Assembly (NCBI GenBank): GCA_030272155.1
Contig: CP126196.1
Location: 5,890,501 to 5,954,500, forward strand
Length of the DNA: 64,000 nt
Reading direction: 5' to 3'
DNA from: Tetradesmus obliquus
Lineage: Eukaryota > Chlorophyta > Chlorophyceae > Sphaeropleales > Scenedesmaceae
The notes beneath the pieces were generated by a model that worked only from the letters and a program-made list of their open reading frames with translations, ran no database searches and was not told where the DNA came from. The position numbers and the translations under genes are program-made. Of this stretch, positions 5,627 through 49,756 are shown in pieces; positions within the stretch are counted from its first letter, which is position 1, and the number at the start of each line of letters is the position of its first letter.

Positions 5627-6290
5627 TTGCTGCTGCGTCTGCTGCTGCTGCTGCTGCTGCTGTTGCTGCTGCATCGTTACCTGCATGCTCTTCGCTTGCC
5701 AGGCCTACCCAATTGCCGGCTGCCAGAACAGGGCTGCTGCTGTCTGTTGGTGGCAGCTGTCGGACTTGATGCCCCAGCAAGGCTGCAACCTCACTTTCTG
5801 CTGGCTGATCTGATGCTGCTTGCTGGGCGCATGTGGGTGTCTGAACTGCAGGGCTGGGTGGGACTGCAAGGGTGGGTTGGACTGCAGGGCTGGTCTGGAC
5901 TGCAGGGCTGGGCTGGACTGCAGGGCTGGGTTGGACTGCAGGGCTGGGCTGGACTGCAGGGTTGGGCTGGACTGTAGGGCTGGGCTGGACTGCAGGGCTG
6001 GGCTGGACTGCAGGGCTGGGTTGGACTGCTGGGCTCGGTTGGACTGCAGGGCTGGGCTGGACTGATGTGTTGATGTGGGAAATGTTGGTGTGCTGGAAAT
6101 CGATGGATGCAGCAATGCTCTGAATTGACCTTGTTGGAAACGGAGTCAGCCTCACGCTGATTTTTCCAGCTGCTGCTGTGATGGTTTTTGAAAACGATGG
6201 CCATGACAGCAACGGAACGCAAATCACAACGGCGACAAAGAATGCGCACGCTATGCTATCTCTGTGCTTGTTTCTCTGCTCGGACGCCAT
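707..6290 (-). CDS. GT90-family glycosyltransferase, copy A (3' end outside window)
   Basis: Putative Golgi type II glycosyltransferase of family GT90 (CAP10/POGLUT-like). It probably transfers a sugar to a protein or wall glycan; donor and acceptor cannot be told. Phase-compatible exons are 5,681-6,290, 4,740-4,863 (least certain), 3,932-4,273, 3,403-3,545, 3,218-3,335, 3,125-3,198 and 707-893. The last two coding exons would lie left of the window. The start is the ATG at 6,290 (MASEQRN), conserved in copy B, whereas codons upstream are not. A membrane anchor follows (about residues 12-33), then a stem of AVQPSP repeats and an Ala/Gln-rich segment. GT90 signatures are FPDVDLWVLFGDAPG, PMLIWRGTNT, the DWVDLKEQQK segment, and LSIDGHGTPDRLPLQYLQGS. 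No stop interrupts these exons, so the copy may be functional. Transcripts could revise the small second exon and the stem boundary. Confidence 0.82.
5587..5674. repeat. CTG/CAG microsatellite at the GT90 copy A exon 1 donor
   Basis: Interrupted CTG repeat directly downstream (minus strand) of the exon 1 donor GCAG|GTAACG at 5,680. If the donor is not used, the tract would be translated as an Ala or Gln run. Copy B has an equivalent, shorter tract at 15,117-15,151. Confidence 0.85.
5838..6064 (-). repeat. 18-bp minisatellite coding AVQPSP repeats (copy A)
   Basis: Tandem 18-bp units (about 12) inside GT90 exon 1 encode six-residue Pro/Gln repeats in the stem between membrane anchor and catalytic domain. 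Units vary mainly by single C/T changes (PSP, PNP, TSP and PTL variants). Copy B has a different number of units, so the array changes length. Confidence 0.9.
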
Positions 6291-15151: not shown

Positions 15152-15805
15152 ATTGTCACCTGCATGATCTTCGCTCGCCAGGCCTTCCCAGTTGCCGGCT
15201 GCCAACACAGGGCTGTTGCTGTCTGTTGGAGGCAGCTGTCGGACTTGATGCCCCAGCAAGGCTGCAACCTCGCCGTCTGCTGGCTGATCTGATGCTGCTT
15301 GCTGGGCGCATGTGGGTGTCTGAACTGCAGGGCTGGGCTGGACTGTAGGGCTGGGTTGGACTGCAGGGCTGGGCTGGACTGCAGGGCTCGGTTGGACTGC
15401 AGGGCTGGGCTGGACTGCAGGGCTGGGTTGGACTGCAGGGCTGGGCTGGACTGCAGGGCTGGGCTGGACTGCAGGGCTGGGCTGGACTGCAGGGCTGGGC
15501 TGGACTGCAGGGCTGGGCTGGACTGCAGGGCTGGGTTGGACTGCAGGGCTGGGTTGAACTGCAGGGTTGGGTTCGACTGTTGCGTTGGTGTAGGAAATAT
15601 TCCTATGCTGGAAATCGATGGAGGCAACACTGATCTGATTCAATTGTGGCGGAAACGCAGCCAGCCTCAGGCGAATTCGTCCGTCTGCTGCTGTGGTATT
15701 ATTCAAAAAAGAGGGCCATGACAGCAACGGAACGCAGATCACAACGGCAACGAAGAATGCACATGCTATGCTGCCTCTGTGCGCGTTTCGCTGCTCGGGA
15801 GCCAT
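7550..15805 (-). CDS. GT90-family glycosyltransferase, copy B (complete, nine exons)
   Basis: Full gene of the tandem pair. Exons are 15,160-15,805, 14,253-14,370 (frame uncertain), 13,411-13,752, 12,891-13,033, 12,706-12,823, 12,613-12,686, 9,717-9,903, 8,160-8,376 and 7,550-7,783. All junctions are GT-AG and phases agree, giving about 692 residues and a TGA stop at 7,550. The ATG at 15,805 (MAPEQRN) opens a type II anchor at about residues 12-33, followed by about 14 AVQPSP repeats (about 80-165) that form a Pro-rich stem. The catalytic region holds LWVFFGDAPG, PMLIWRGANT, LSIDGHGTPDRLPLQYLQGS and, after the 9,717/8,376 junction, FDEIFQAGVHYEPVRYDLND, the typical GT90 C-terminal segment. 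Golgi glycosylation is inferred from the family. The ninth exon (77 residues) matches nothing I recognise. Introns reach 2.8 kb and hold most differences between copies. Confidence 0.88.
9371..9570. repeat. Imperfect CTAGCTAGCCAGCCAGG repeats (copy B intron)
   Basis: Duplicate of 361-560. In the complete gene it lies in the intron between exons 9,717-9,903 and 8,160-8,376. Confidence 0.75.
11445..11922. other. 478-bp segment present only in duplication copy B, ending in a perfect hairpin
   Basis: Copy A joins at 2,434/2,435, while copy B carries 478 extra bases here, flanked by a 2-base CA identity. It may be an insertion in copy B or a microhomology deletion in copy A. Its right part contains a perfect 25-bp inverted repeat (11,846-11,870 and 11,885-11,909) with a 14-base loop. 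It lies in a 2.7 kb GT90 intron. No coding potential was recognised. Confidence 0.85.
15117..15151. repeat. CTG/CAG microsatellite at the GT90 copy B exon 1 donor
   Basis: Pure CTG tract, much shorter than in copy A, just inside intron 1 of GT90 copy B next to donor GCAG|GTGACA. Confidence 0.85.
15325..15580 (-). repeat. 18-bp minisatellite coding AVQPSP repeats (copy B)
   Basis: Same 18-bp unit as in copy A, with about two more units and less sequence variation between them. This suggests recent homogenisation or expansion. The reading frame is kept. Confidence 0.9.
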
Positions 15806-26633: not shown

Positions 26634-26922
26634 CAGCTAGGTATGGTACAAACGTAGCATCTGCATTTTGCAACAAATCAACACAGCTTGCAAGCAGACA
26701 GCCATGCTGGCATAGCAACCTGCTGTATGTGGCAGGCACAGTAAGGCACAGCTGCCAGTGCTGCTGCTTTGGTTTGCTTGCATCCCAGTTGCACAGCAGG
26801 GCCCTCACCTGCCAGCAGCAGCAGCTCCAAACTGCTAGTGATTTTGAGCTCCAGAATTCGCCTTGATCACACAGCATGGATGTTTGCAGGAAACTGTGTA
26901 GAATACTAGTACTCAACAAACT
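26634..26922 (+). repeat. Left terminal inverted repeat, 289 bp
   Basis: Reverse complement of 30,871-31,159. By eye I see one mismatch (in the CACAGCAT[G/A]GATG word). The repeats diverge abruptly after ACTCAACAAAC. Confidence 0.95.
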
Positions 26923-27464
26923 CTGTGCAGCCACACTAGCTGCACGCTCGCAGCAGCTGCCGGTGGGCCTGAAGCGTTGTTGAGCAGTATGTAACAGATA
27001 TGACAGTTGAAATGGCATGTGCAGCGCACAGCGCAAAGCAGCAGAGCGCAACCGCAGCGGCAGGGCACTTGGCACACCAGAACTGCAGTGCCTGATCAGC
27101 CAGCAAGGGAAGCCCAGAAGTATTACAATACACATCAAAACATGTTGCAGGCAGCAGCACCCACAGCAACACTCCACAGCGCAAGTTAACATATGTAACA
27201 GCCGAGTCGGGGCACTTCAGGGCAACGTGTTTTCAGCACTTTTCTTGCAGCACACTGTGCCACTGCTAACAGCTTAAATTGATTTAGATTCGTCGTTGAA
27301 AGCTTGACATTTATATGTAGGCCACTTGTTCGCTACGTTTGTACCATGCCCAGCTGAGACCGGTCAAACTCCATGATGCTGCATGCTGTTGTTTGACCTG
27401 ACCAGTTACTTCTGTTCACACTGCTGCTAGAAGCACATCTAACATATCCATATGTTTCGGATTC

Positions 27465-29668
27465 ATGCCTGCAGGGGGGCTGTCCATGGTGCGCAGGCAC
27501 CCTTCGGGATGGAAGAGCAACCGCAGTACCACGGCCATGAGGGTGGCGGCGGTGGTGTGTGTGATAATGGCTTTGACCACCGCTGACGAAAAGATTACCC
27601 CCGCATACTATTACAGAGAGCAGTACCCTGACTACGCCAAGGAGGTACACGGGGACCTGAACCTGTTCTGCAGACTTCATCACAAGAACTTCACAGCAAA
27701 CGGCACAGTGGCTACACCCAAGCATGGCGGCAGGCCCTCAAATGTCCCACATGCTGTCGCCTTCCATGCCAGCACAATATTCAAGGCTGGCAAGGTGGTA
27801 AAGGCCTACCCATCTGCAGATTCAAAGAGAAAGGTTGATGTGCATGTGTGGTGGACTTCAATCGAAGTCGCATGTCAGGAAAATGACACACTGCGCCAGC
27901 TGTGCACTGACTACAACATCACACCCAAGAGACTGCTGAAGTACATGAAATGGGCTGACCCCGACCTGGTGCGCAGGAGAATAGATGTGAAGCTGGACTT
28001 GACAAAGATACAGAAACAAAGGCGAAAGGCAGCAGCTGCGGCGCTGTGGCAGAAGTACCAAAGTGACCCCGACATGCTGCAGCGCATATATTTCATTGAT
28101 GAGTGCAAATTCTGGATGTCAGACCTGGCAGGCGGCTCCGTCAAGGTCTATTGTGATGCACACGATGAAAACGTGCATGCTGTGCTGCCATGCAAATGGA
28201 TGCGCAAGGGCAAGGACGCAGAGCCGGTCAAGTTGCACTTTGTTTGCGCCGTCAACGCTGTGCACGGGCCCGTCTACTGCAAGTTTGTCACCGGCACAAC
28301 AGACAACAAGGACCATGCTGGCAACCTCAATGTACCGTACATGGTGAGTGTGCGCTGCTACTGCGCAGGCGCCTGCCATTGAAAGACATGCCAGCCCTGC
28401 TGTACTATGTAGTAACAGTCCCGCAGTGCTTTTTTTAGTGCTGTAGTGAAGCTGCAGCGCTGCCCGTCCTCTGCTGTGAACATAACAGCAGAGTAACTTA
28501 ATGACAGTACAATGACACCACCTGCAGCAGCAAGCTGGAAACCAATGTGCAAGGATTGGTGCATGTCACATCCGCGCGTGCTCACGCGCAGCACACTCCC
28601 CCCTGGCTGCAGCCAGTTGTCATATGCTGCAGCGCAGAACTCAAAGTCGCGCTCCAGCACCTGCTGCCTGCTGCTGCTGTAATAACCCTTGTCATGACAT
28701 GAGCCATCAGCTTGAATCAGCATGTTGTGCTGTGCATGGATGAAATCAATCCGCCCATCCCACCAGTCCACTGCTACCTGAGCACACATACTGCTGCTGA
28801 TGCCTAACCAGTACAGCATGCGCACCAGCTGCTCCTCGCTTGTGTGCATGTAGCCCATGCATGTGCCAACTATATCAGCCAGCACACATGCACACATCTT
28901 GCACTGAAGCGCTGCTGCTGTGGCGACTGCACGCGGCGCGCAGAACTTGAAGTGCTGCACACCTGGCAAGCAGCCAGTCAAGCCCCAGAACAATCTCTGC
29001 CCCCTCATAGACTTGGTGATGTATCTGACCTTGTCTGCACTGAGCCTGATGTGGAAGCGTTCCATCGCATCCATCCACACCGCTGCGTTGCGCTCCTGCG
29101 CTGCTAACAAGGCTGCGCGCTGCCAATCCGGCAATTCTTGCACCTGCAGTTGAAGGACAAACCAACCCAGCAGGCCAAGAGCATGACTCAGCTGGAGTTT
29201 GTTCACTGCATGATGGAGATCAAAGACATAGCCAACCAACAGCAGGCGCAGCGCGGCACTACGCCGCTGTACATCTTTGACAACCCAAGTGTTCACCTGG
29301 GGAAGGATGGCCTACAGATGTTAGTTGCAGGCGGCATCAATGAAGATCAACTGCTGCACATTGCACCCTACTCCCCAGATTTCAACAAGCCCATTGAACA
29401 TGCATTTGGCAGCCTCAAAGCAGCCTTCCGCAACTACTTGTATAACAGCTGCCAGCTGGGTGGTGCTGATGTGAAGCCGCGAGACCTGCAGCACGGCCTG
29501 AACAACACCTTCATGAAGATCACAGCTGCATCTGTCATGGCTGATGTATTGAAGCTGCCAGATTTGTGGAATATGGTGCGCAGTCGCAAGAGGAGTCTTT
29601 GTGTGTGCCGAGACGGGAAGCAGCGCAGCGGCACTGCTGGTGACTACCCCAGGAAGGACCAACGCTGA
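27465..29668 (+). CDS. DDE transposase of the long-TIR element (two exons)
   Basis: Exon 1 is 27,465-28,343 and exon 2 is 29,150-29,668. The 806-base intron has GTGAGT and TGCAG borders and is phase 0, giving 465 residues. The start could instead be the ATG at 27,537. Residues about 110-190 are basic and helical, fitting the DNA-binding region. The catalytic core has IYFIDECKFWM (first Asp), LYIFDNPSVHLGKDG (second Asp) and APYSPDFNKPIEHAFGSLK (third acidic residue). The last two catalytic residues are 38 apart, against 34 in classical Tc1. IS630/Tc1/mariner cut-and-paste activity is inferred from these motifs. No disabling stop or frameshift is seen, and the TIRs flank it correctly, so it may be active. 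Confidence 0.88.
28358..29074 (-). CDS. Putative Vsr/PD-(D/E)XK-type nuclease nested antisense in the transposase intron
   Basis: A 238-codon ORF from ATG at 29,074 to a stop at 28,358, lying entirely within the transposase intron (28,344-29,149) on the opposite strand. The frame stays open upstream into exon 2 but lacks an earlier ATG. The pattern fits restriction-endonuclease-like folds of the Vsr/DUF559 type: TSEEQLVRMLYWLG (acidic helix), WWDGRIDF (catalytic Asp), MLIQADGSCHD (the usual E/Q-x-DG-x-x-H strand), then VLERDFEFCAAAY and SVLRVSTRGCD (Q/K-D helix and VlRv strand). The N-terminal half has several Cys and may bind DNA. It probably acts on DNA. It could assist transposition, be a hitch-hiking homing-type gene, or be domesticated. 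The assignment rests on motif spacing read by eye, not on a search. Confidence 0.55.
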   Translation of the reverse strand: MDAMERFHIRLSADKVRYITKSMRGQRLFWGLTGCLPGVQHFKFCAPRAVATAAALQCKMCACVLADIVGTCMGYMHTSEEQLVRMLYWLGISSSMCAQVAVDWWDGRIDFIHAQHNMLIQADGSCHDKGYYSSSRQQVLERDFEFCAAAYDNWLQPGGSVLRVSTRGCDMHQSLHIGFQLAAAGGVIVLSLSYSAVMFTAEDGQRCSFTTALKKALRDCYYIVQQGWHVFQWQAPAQ

Positions 29669-30870
29669 GTCTGCTGTTGTGCTGCTGCATGGCATGTTGT
29701 GCATGTGGCTGTCAGCTGCATGCAAGATGGCTGGCAGCAGTGCACAGGCTGACTTTCAGAGAGCCCTTGAGCTCACCTGTTTGAAGGCACCTGCGCTTGC
29801 CGCCGTCCTGCATGTTCGCACCGCCCGGGGCTTGGGAGGTGCTGGCACCATGCTGCTGTAGGGTGGTTACTTCCTGGTGTTCACCTGAGAGCGAGTGTGG
29901 GAAGGAAATGGCATGTTCAGAAGCTTATTGTATGAGTAAACTGCCAGGCAGCAAGGCACTTGGTGGCCATTTCACATACAGGCATTTGCAGTCATGCTGA
30001 AGGGCCGATTGTATTGGTAAAATGCTTGGTATAATTCAATTACGCTCGTAGCTCTGGAACATGGCTCCTGCTGCTGTCACTCGCGTTGGTTGTGACAACT
30101 GTTGGCCTGCCAAGCGATATGCACGGAGCCTGCAAGAAACATTGCGGTTGATTTTTTTTCTATATTTGACGATTGCTTTAAGCATGGCGTGAGCCGAAAT
30201 AAGCTGCGGTATGGTGAAGAACTTCAAGACGGAATGTGCCGTGAAACAAGCCTGCTCCAGGCCACACAGCTTCCACGCTGCTCACTTATCAACGTCGACA
30301 CATTATGTAACTTACCTTTGGTTAAGGTAGAAAACCAACTGCGAAGGGCCCTCGCAAGCCCACCGTGCAGGTGAGCCTGACGGGTCAACACGGATGTCCA
30401 GAGCACTGCAGCTCGATCGTGTTGCTGCAGCACCTGCAAACATTTGGTATTGAACATTATTGGACGTTAAAAACAGCGCTGTGCCGAAAGCCTTCGCCAA
30501 TAAATTTGGTGGCAGCAGTGAGGCACCTGCTGGCACATGCTGCTGCTGTCACGCCCACCAACGACTGCAGTTGAAAAACACATGCCACCGTGATTCAAAG
30601 CACACACATAGCTGTAACGTTTCCTGCTGTTTGCTGCTGCTGCTGCTGCTCCTGCCCAGGCAGATATCATGTATTGCAAACAGCACTACTGCCGCAGGAA
30701 AATCAGCTGCATACCCAGCAGCAGCAGGAGCACATCAGCCATAGCATAAAAAGGTAGGTGTGCACTTCAGGCACCAAGTCCAGGAACAGCAACAGAAGGG
30801 ATGCAGTGCAGGCTAAGAACTGCTGCAGCAAAGGCTGGCATGCATTTACAGTCTCAGAGACTGTTCTCAG

Positions 30871-31159
30871 TGTTTGTTGAGTACTAGTATTCTACACAGT
30901 TTCCTGCAAACATCTATGCTGTGTGATCAAGGCGAATTCTGGAGCTCAAAATCACTAGCAGTTTGGAGCTGCTGCTGCTGGCAGGTGAGGGCCCTGCTGT
31001 GCAACTGGGATGCAAGCAAACCAAAGCAGCAGCACTGGCAGCTGTGCCTTACTGTGCCTGCCACATACAGCAGGTTGCTATGCCAGCATGGCTGTCTGCT
31101 TGCAAGCTGTGTTGATTTGTTGCAAAATGCAGATGCTACGTTTGTACCATACCTAGCTG
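30871..31159 (-). repeat. Right terminal inverted repeat, 289 bp
   Basis: Partner of 26,634-26,922. It contains an open frame of about 95 codons that is also open in the left TIR. That is expected from the inverted copy and is not evidence of coding. Confidence 0.95.

Positions 31160-49462: not shown

Positions 49463-49756
<294 letters not shown>

Follow-up and report, generated by a model that had tools for sequence, protein, structure and literature searches.

A 64,000-nucleotide stretch of the green alga Tetradesmus obliquus (contig CP126196.1, positions 5,890,501 to 5,954,500 of the forward strand; the window) contains a copy of a composite-like DNA transposon with the plan B-C-B, where B is a long terminal direct repeat (LTDR) with its own short inverted tips and C is a core that holds a transposase gene and, on the opposite strand, a nuclease-like gene. 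Judged from homologues and genomic copies, the antisense frame is a real conserved gene, and each gene appears to have an exon within an intron of the other. We propose tentatively, with the balance leaning slightly the other way, that this reciprocal nesting and a single palindromic splice acceptor let the transposase and a break-making Vsr-like nuclease be expressed unpaired, that the nuclease drives the in-place growth of 100-kb arrays, and that the element follows a second, convergent KolobokP way of life outside animals.

Composite structure, arrays and target duplications

The genome scanned for copies, of which the window is part, comprises 104.7 Mb in 17 contigs, labelled C1-C17. Four families of the element were compared: family 1 is that of the window, family 2 comes from C4, family 3 from C10 and family 4 from C6:5540268. 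The window copy consists of B-C followed on the right by a truncated, inverted B:

26634..27356, plus strand: left B block, 723 bp, long terminal direct repeat, with inverted tips CAGCTAGGTATGG.. / ..CCATGCCCAGCTG
26634..26658, plus strand: left tip of B, 25 bp
27332..27356, minus strand: right tip of B, inverted copy of the left tip
27357..30854, plus strand: core C, from AGACCGG.. to ..CAGTCT, with both genes inside
30868..31159, minus strand: right end of the window copy, a truncated inverted B of 292 bp; flanks GGT/CTC, no target duplication

Comparison with 20 pieces of the same genome ruled out the 292-bp inverted repeat as the ordinary end structure. The length of B ranges from 718 to 726 bp in the pieces, and its two ends carry the tip CAGCTGGGYATGGTACAAACGTAGC in inverted orientation; a C of 3557-3559 bp was measured in the pieces. 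A monomer, B-C-B, has its two B blocks as direct repeats, and arrays take the form (B-C)n-B, in places with C joined to C without B. The tips begin with CAG and end with CTG (CAG and GTG in family 2), and the ends of C are AGACC..CAGTCT in family 1 and AAGGC..GCCTT in family 2.

The C-C junctions record what is left when B is missing. The array period on C5 is 4282 with B and mostly 3562 without, and on C14 it is 4280 versus 3560; the difference of 720 is B minus three bases. On C12, where B is 721, periods with and without B differ by 718. The junctions all read CAG or CTG, in 6 of 6 cases in family-1 pieces (four arrays) and 6 of 6 in family-2 pieces, the latter from one C4 array (10 pieces, B present at the site in four). 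Three-base C(A/T)G footprints are of a kind known from Tc1 relatives.

Both outer flanks were read for 15 insertions, eight pairs being compared by script and seven by eye. Identical 3-mers flanked 13 of them: seven B-C-B copies (one each on C17, C7, C8, C15 and C6, two on C16), four arrays and two solo B on C13. The duplications are varied (GTT, ATC twice, GGC, AAC, AGC, AGT, GTG, TAT, GCT, CAC, AAT and CGG), and all four arrays with both ends read have one (ATC on C5, GCT on C4, AAT on C14, CGG on C12). The two insertions without matching 3-mers are the window copy (GGT/CTC) and a solo B at C6:6042294 (TCT/TGT). The original prediction had placed the transposase in the Tc1/mariner superfamily. 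Neither the element ends nor the varied 3-bp duplications are those of Tc1/mariner, whose TA target duplication was not found here.

The array at 1158930-1270228 on C5 has 27 listed nuclease copies and that at 3947518-4044497 on C12 has 24, both ends having been read in each case, and C13 carries a run of 51 nuclease copies over ~213 kb. A single outer duplication around uniform units implies that arrays grew after insertion or entered as concatemers.

Some loci depart from this pattern. In a C3 array (C3:7157000-7183900) the B and C units each occur in both orientations, as though recombination between the inverted B tips had flipped units; the five copies read there share a one-base deletion in transposase exon 1. 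At C16:894000-924000, B-C-B together with ~5.5 kb of flank recurs at a spacing of 10,558 bp (three nuclease copies), so that host flank seems to have been co-amplified with the element. At C16:260481-278112, five copies of transposase exon 2 recur with a 4279-bp period and no nuclease match among the 150 scored; the nuclease frame of this possible array may be shifted or lost, or its nuclease copies may rank below those listed. The window itself also holds a perfect (TGA)98 tract at 49463-49756 and, at 5841-6064 and 15320-15579, two arrays of one common 18-bp unit.

The transposase gene and the probable antisense nuclease gene

The genes within C, with introns predicted from the sequence, are arranged as follows:

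27465..28343, plus strand: transposase exon 1, 293 codons, phase 0, first catalytic Asp in IYFIDEC
28344..29149, plus strand: predicted transposase intron, 806 bases, GTGAGT..CTGCAG, phase 0, nuclease exon 2 inside
29150..29668, plus strand: transposase exon 2 with stop, second Asp in DNPSVH, Glu in SPDFNKPIE
28358..29143, minus strand: nuclease exon 2 with stop, 261 codons and stop, Vsr/DUF559-like domain
29144..29776, minus strand: putative nuclease intron, GTGAGC..CTGCAG, transposase exon 2 inside
29777..29851, minus strand: putative nuclease leader exon, ATG and 24 codons, MVPAPPKPRAVRTCRTAASAGAFKQ
29144..29149, both strands: palindrome CTGCAG, acceptor end of both introns

The original prediction described an 806-base, phase-0 GT-AG intron between the first and second catalytic Asp of the transposase and an antisense open reading frame (ORF) of 238 codons inside it. 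Both were recovered, the intron at 28344-29149 between IYFIDEC and DNPSVH, and the ATG-to-stop ORF at 28358-29074 (717 bases including the stop) with the motifs TSEEQL, RIDF, IQADGSCH and SVLRVS in that order. By its motifs the transposase appears to be of the IS630/Tc1-like DDE kind. The Pfam DDE_3 profile matches exon 2 at E 4.8e-5 with 23.7 bits, below the cut-off of 28.6; the catalytic motifs were read by eye, as was the spacing in exon 2, where 38 residues separate the second Asp from the Glu. A comparison with PDB sequences gave no convincing relative of the transposase (a single match, E 0.59). No stop was found in 150 scored genomic copies of exon 2 or in 125 of exon 1. The intron is, on the evidence of the homologues, old. 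All 18 transposase homologues (30-99% identity; protein sequences only) continue beyond TGTTD, which is TGITD in one and SGTTD in another, into a valine codon, as is to be expected if a gene caller that does not splice translated straight across a phase-0 GTN donor.

The antisense ORF is present, but its extent of 238 codons is too short. In homologues the conserved frame is kept further upstream than the window ATG, to a VQ.L..WQ start just behind the CTGCAG palindrome, and the window ATG codon is an arginine in homologue P0002. The protein database holds 25 homologous nuclease proteins. The ORF also recurs in other copies of the element, with at least 262 nuclease copies in the genome (a hand tally of 150, 7 more and 105 outside family 1; each search scored the best 146-150 of 273-280 candidates) and the same intron position in families 1 to 4. 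Exon 2 of the nuclease differs between families 1 and 2 at 229 positions (~29% divergence) without a stop. When the family-2 exon was evolved neutrally in simulation to this divergence, the frame stayed open in 7 of 5000 runs, with a mean of 6.8 stops. Because of the homologues, the genomic copies and this simulation, the frame is taken to be beyond chance, a structural claim that we rate much firmer than the splicing. Twenty pattern stretches in viral contigs and 40 stretches in a prokaryote genome collection yielded no confirmed relative. The longest metagenome contigs behind the homologues measure 4.2-4.6 kb for 6 of the 25 nuclease and 5 of the 18 transposase clusters, and ~3.5 kb for three more nuclease and two more transposase clusters; these lengths lie near those of the B-C and C units, as collapsed tandem arrays would yield.

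The antisense protein is likely a Vsr/DUF559-like PD-(D/E)XK nuclease, its activity being predicted from profiles and a structural model. The DUF559 profile matches 12 of 20 family members at E <=1 (best E 0.0074), and the window protein scores 13.4 bits against a cut-off of 20.6; seven further families match one member each, the best being DUF6239 (E 0.0049). A model of the full-length protein was poor and its cyclase-like matches were set aside in favor of a domain model. This domain model has a helix, three strands, a helix and a strand; E lies in helix 1, D in strand 2 and QxD in strand 3, and its best PDB match in VIA-align is Vsr. Conserved acidic active-site residues are present in the family (E103, D133 and Q144-x-D146, along with H150, which sits in a low-confidence loop of the model). 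The catalytic residues are presumably among these; the motifs presumably correspond to residues of Vsr and EDxHD nucleases. Searches against PDB sequences gave no convincing relative (two matches, E 0.84 and 1.3), and none was found by profile. No match named HNH or His-Me was found at E 1 in Pfam or NCBIfam, nor among PHROG matches, yet the latter are mostly families of unknown function. The N-terminal part of the protein (28840-28985, minus strand) contains a conserved Cys/His pattern, GCLPGVQHFK.C...C..C.C, which could bind zinc.

The nuclease message would consist of a 25-codon leader and the large exon within the transposase intron, transposase exon 2 lying in turn within the nuclease intron. 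Leaders were sought on the nuclease strand as any ATG with an open frame of >=5 codons running into a GTRAGB donor in phase 0, up to 1160 bp upstream (~790 in families 3 and 4, whose pieces are short). Exactly one phase-0 candidate was found in each of families 1 to 3, and family 4 has that candidate plus a longer version of it. In all four families this is the same exon of 25 codons, with GTGAGC as its donor (MVPAPPKPRAVRTCRTAASAGAFKQ in family 1, MAPAHRRRRAVRTHRSPTSRGAVRK in family 2). Phase 1 gave one candidate in family 1 and none in families 2 to 4; phase 2 gave none in any of the four. The 17 bases spanning the acceptor are identical in all four families, and a long pyrimidine tract precedes the acceptor on the nuclease strand in families 2 to 4. 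The candidate count was used because identity between families 1 and 2 around the leader (0.58-0.70, in and beside the exon) does not discriminate. The nucleases of families 2, 3 and 4 are 88-97% identical to each other, so the leader evidence amounts to one distant comparison with near repeats. In family 4 the nuclease is open and transposase exon 2 terminates early. If the splicing is right, the two spliced messages share no base and could not pair with each other. The splicing is rated much less firm than the structural claims on the composite plan, the arrays, the duplications, the footprints and the antisense gene, and firmer than the role of the nuclease.

Selection, array growth and alternative explanations

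Between families 1 and 2, nuclease exon 2 has an NG86 ratio of nonsynonymous to synonymous substitution rates (omega) of 0.56, and the two transposase exons have 0.41 and 0.36. When kappa is set to 2 and multiple hits are not corrected for, the values are 0.76 (P 0.035) for the nuclease and 0.57 and 0.55 for the transposase. Within family 1, the corresponding polymorphism ratio (pN/pS) of the transposase is 0.24 in exon 1 (12 haplotypes; five gapped rows, all C3 copies with one shared one-base deletion, are omitted) and 0.15 in exon 2 (9 haplotypes), with no stop. The nuclease looks to have been kept over the long term, yet to be relaxed now in the family that is filling the genome, a pattern that may be expected of a trans-acting or homing-like gene.

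The most likely explanation of these results, held with belief and doubt about evenly balanced, is a chain from composite transposon through nested splicing and a tip-cutting transposase to nuclease-driven arrays. The transposase would move B-C-B or B alone by the tips, cutting ~3 bases inside them, which would account for the three-base footprint at C-C junctions. The nuclease would cut B internally or at its ends, and repair templated by a neighboring, misaligned B would add B-C units in place, building arrays; these two steps are the least certain. For KolobokP, Kojima and Bao (2022; PMC9587614) proposed that the nuclease cuts a repeat and that wrong-repeat repair adds units. The anatomy of the algal element reproduces the components of that proposal with different parts, and array growth of this type is taken as likeliest.

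Several results weigh against this explanation. For the nuclease fold called for by the original prediction, Foldseek against PDB returned nothing at E <=0.001. Constraint on the nuclease was seen between families and not within family 1, where pN/pS is 0.97 (13 haplotypes, stops in two). Even between families it is mild (0.74-0.79 for family 1 versus families 2, 3 and 4, kappa 2, P 0.02-0.04), and none of the values among the other families is significant (1.31 for families 2 and 3, 0.72 for 2 and 4, 0.76 for 3 and 4, kappa 2). The codon signal of the leader exon is not significant (P 0.38 between families 1 and 2, 0.06 between families 2 and 4), and its ratio within family 1 is 1.43 on four variable sites; the neutral simulation left the leader open in 3198 of 5000 runs and is uninformative. 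A nuclease stop occurs in 14 of 150 scored copies. Eleven of these lie on C17, each with a single TGA, and the C17 copies read are one haplotype. One C17 array of 10 listed units has the TGA in each, so a broken nuclease does not preclude an array. This array grew or persists with the nuclease stop, as a C3 array does with a transposase frameshift. Arrays would also form with no nuclease, through simple unequal crossing-over between B repeats, and some arrays on different contigs (C1, C12 and C16) share one score. Long-term retention with present relaxation argues against a strict present need for the nuclease. Since intact, nuclease-stop (C17) and transposase-frameshift (C3) arrays coexist in one genome, the proposed link between helper nuclease and array growth is testable.

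The original prediction had the transposon carrying its own endonuclease, either an accessory factor or a homing-type gene. The conserved Vsr/DUF559-like gene likely bears this out in part, with the qualification that the profiles are sub-threshold and the gene is relaxed in family 1. A homing-type passenger, long settled in the transposase intron and without a present role, is an unlikely explanation but one to be taken seriously. The neutral pattern and the stops in family 1 suit it, as does the C17 array, and the arrays would arise by ordinary unequal crossing-over, for which long direct repeats such as the 723-bp B suffice. However, the nuclease has the same intron, orientation and splice layout in all four families (families 2, 3 and 4 being mutually close), its frame stayed open across ~29% divergence as few neutral simulations did, and no nuclease copy away from a transposase was noticed among the best 146-150 of 273-280 candidates, which were not each tested. 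A similar pairing of a nuclease with long direct repeats occurs in KolobokP, as far as that account is used here (PMC9587614).

A helper that trims or nicks the mismatched three-base excision ends (CAG versus CTG), in the manner of Vsr, is improbable, and slightly more so than the unspliced message considered below. Vsr is the top structural match, and C(A/T)G at C-C junctions is what is expected when CAG and CTG ends join and the middle mismatch is resolved, a mechanism that would follow from Tc1-type excision. Tc1-type transposons are not known to need a helper nuclease to leave such footprints, though, and family 2 has ends of CAG and GTG, yet the same footprint. It is also improbable that the antisense gene is real but its message unspliced, with translation starting at an internal ATG or at a codon other than ATG, and the leader coincidental. 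This would fit the weak codon signal of the leader and the in-frame ATG found 54 codons upstream of nuclease exon 2 in families 2, 3 and 4. Family 1 has no in-frame ATG upstream, whereas the leader with its GTGAGC donor recurs in all four families and other phases offer a single candidate; the arginine of P0002 at the window ATG speaks against a start there. It is scarcely credible that the ORF stays open by chance or that the arrays are assembly artefacts, given the homologues, the simulations and the identical 3-bp duplications outside all four arrays with both ends read.

Comparison with known systems

No prior description of the element was found in the open-access literature searched, where a passage inside a paper such as PMC12477816 (on Ectocarpus transposons) is possible. 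The transposase resembles the IS630/Tc1/mariner (ITm) group, including Zator, in its DDE_3-like exon 2, the SPDFNKPIE motif and the 38-residue spacing. Unlike that group, the element has a variable 3-bp duplication rather than TA, the composite B-C-B plan and a second gene. In the part of PMC7386202 used here, TA is the classical Tc1/mariner duplication and Zator a separate superfamily; nothing on a Zator with a 3-bp target duplication turned up in the open-access literature.

The nuclease is like Vsr, DUF559 and EDxHD members of the PD-(D/E)XK nucleases in the fold order and the placement of E, D and QxD in the model, and in its best match. It differs from them in that no profile scores above cut-off, in its extra N-terminal Cys/His region and in its location in a nuclear DNA transposon. 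Homing endonucleases in group I introns, which include EDxHD and PD-(D/E)XK classes, also lie within another gene's intron (PMC3943268, in the part drawn on); the transposase intron is bounded by ordinary GT-AG ends and holds the nuclease in antisense orientation.

The closest parallel in plan is KolobokP, as portrayed in the portions of Kojima and Bao (2022; PMC9587614) used here. It is reported there from animals, with a Kolobok transposase, a His-Me finger nuclease on the complementary strand downstream of the transposase, 5'-RR..YY-3' Kolobok termini, target duplications of 3-5 bp and excision that removes 1-5 flanking bases. In both elements an internal region (INT) is enclosed by long terminal direct repeats, each of which has short inverted tips of its own; both occur as LTDR-INT-LTDR monomers, solo repeats, (LTDR-INT)n-LTDR and LTDR-(INT)n-LTDR; and both combine variable short target duplications with a DDD/E transposase and a small nuclease on the complementary strand. 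In contrast to KolobokP, the algal element has what appear to be an IS630/Tc1-like transposase and a Vsr/DUF559-like nuclease, its tips read CAG..CTG (CAG..GTG in family 2) and not 5'-RR..YY-3', and its excision would leave three bases. Its nuclease exon lies within the transposase intron, and apparently also the reverse, and its arrays reach 24 and 27 listed units, with B and C also inverted within an array. The element thus looks, from its sequence, to work like KolobokP without being one, with a nuclease apparently of another kind. If the reciprocal nesting is true, it is a compact answer to the expression of two fully antisense genes. In a photosynthetic eukaryote, whose genome has 52 matches to the light-harvesting family PF00504, the unusual plan of direct repeats with inverted tips, a helper nuclease and in-place multimers would have been arrived at by way of another transposase and, it appears, another nuclease.
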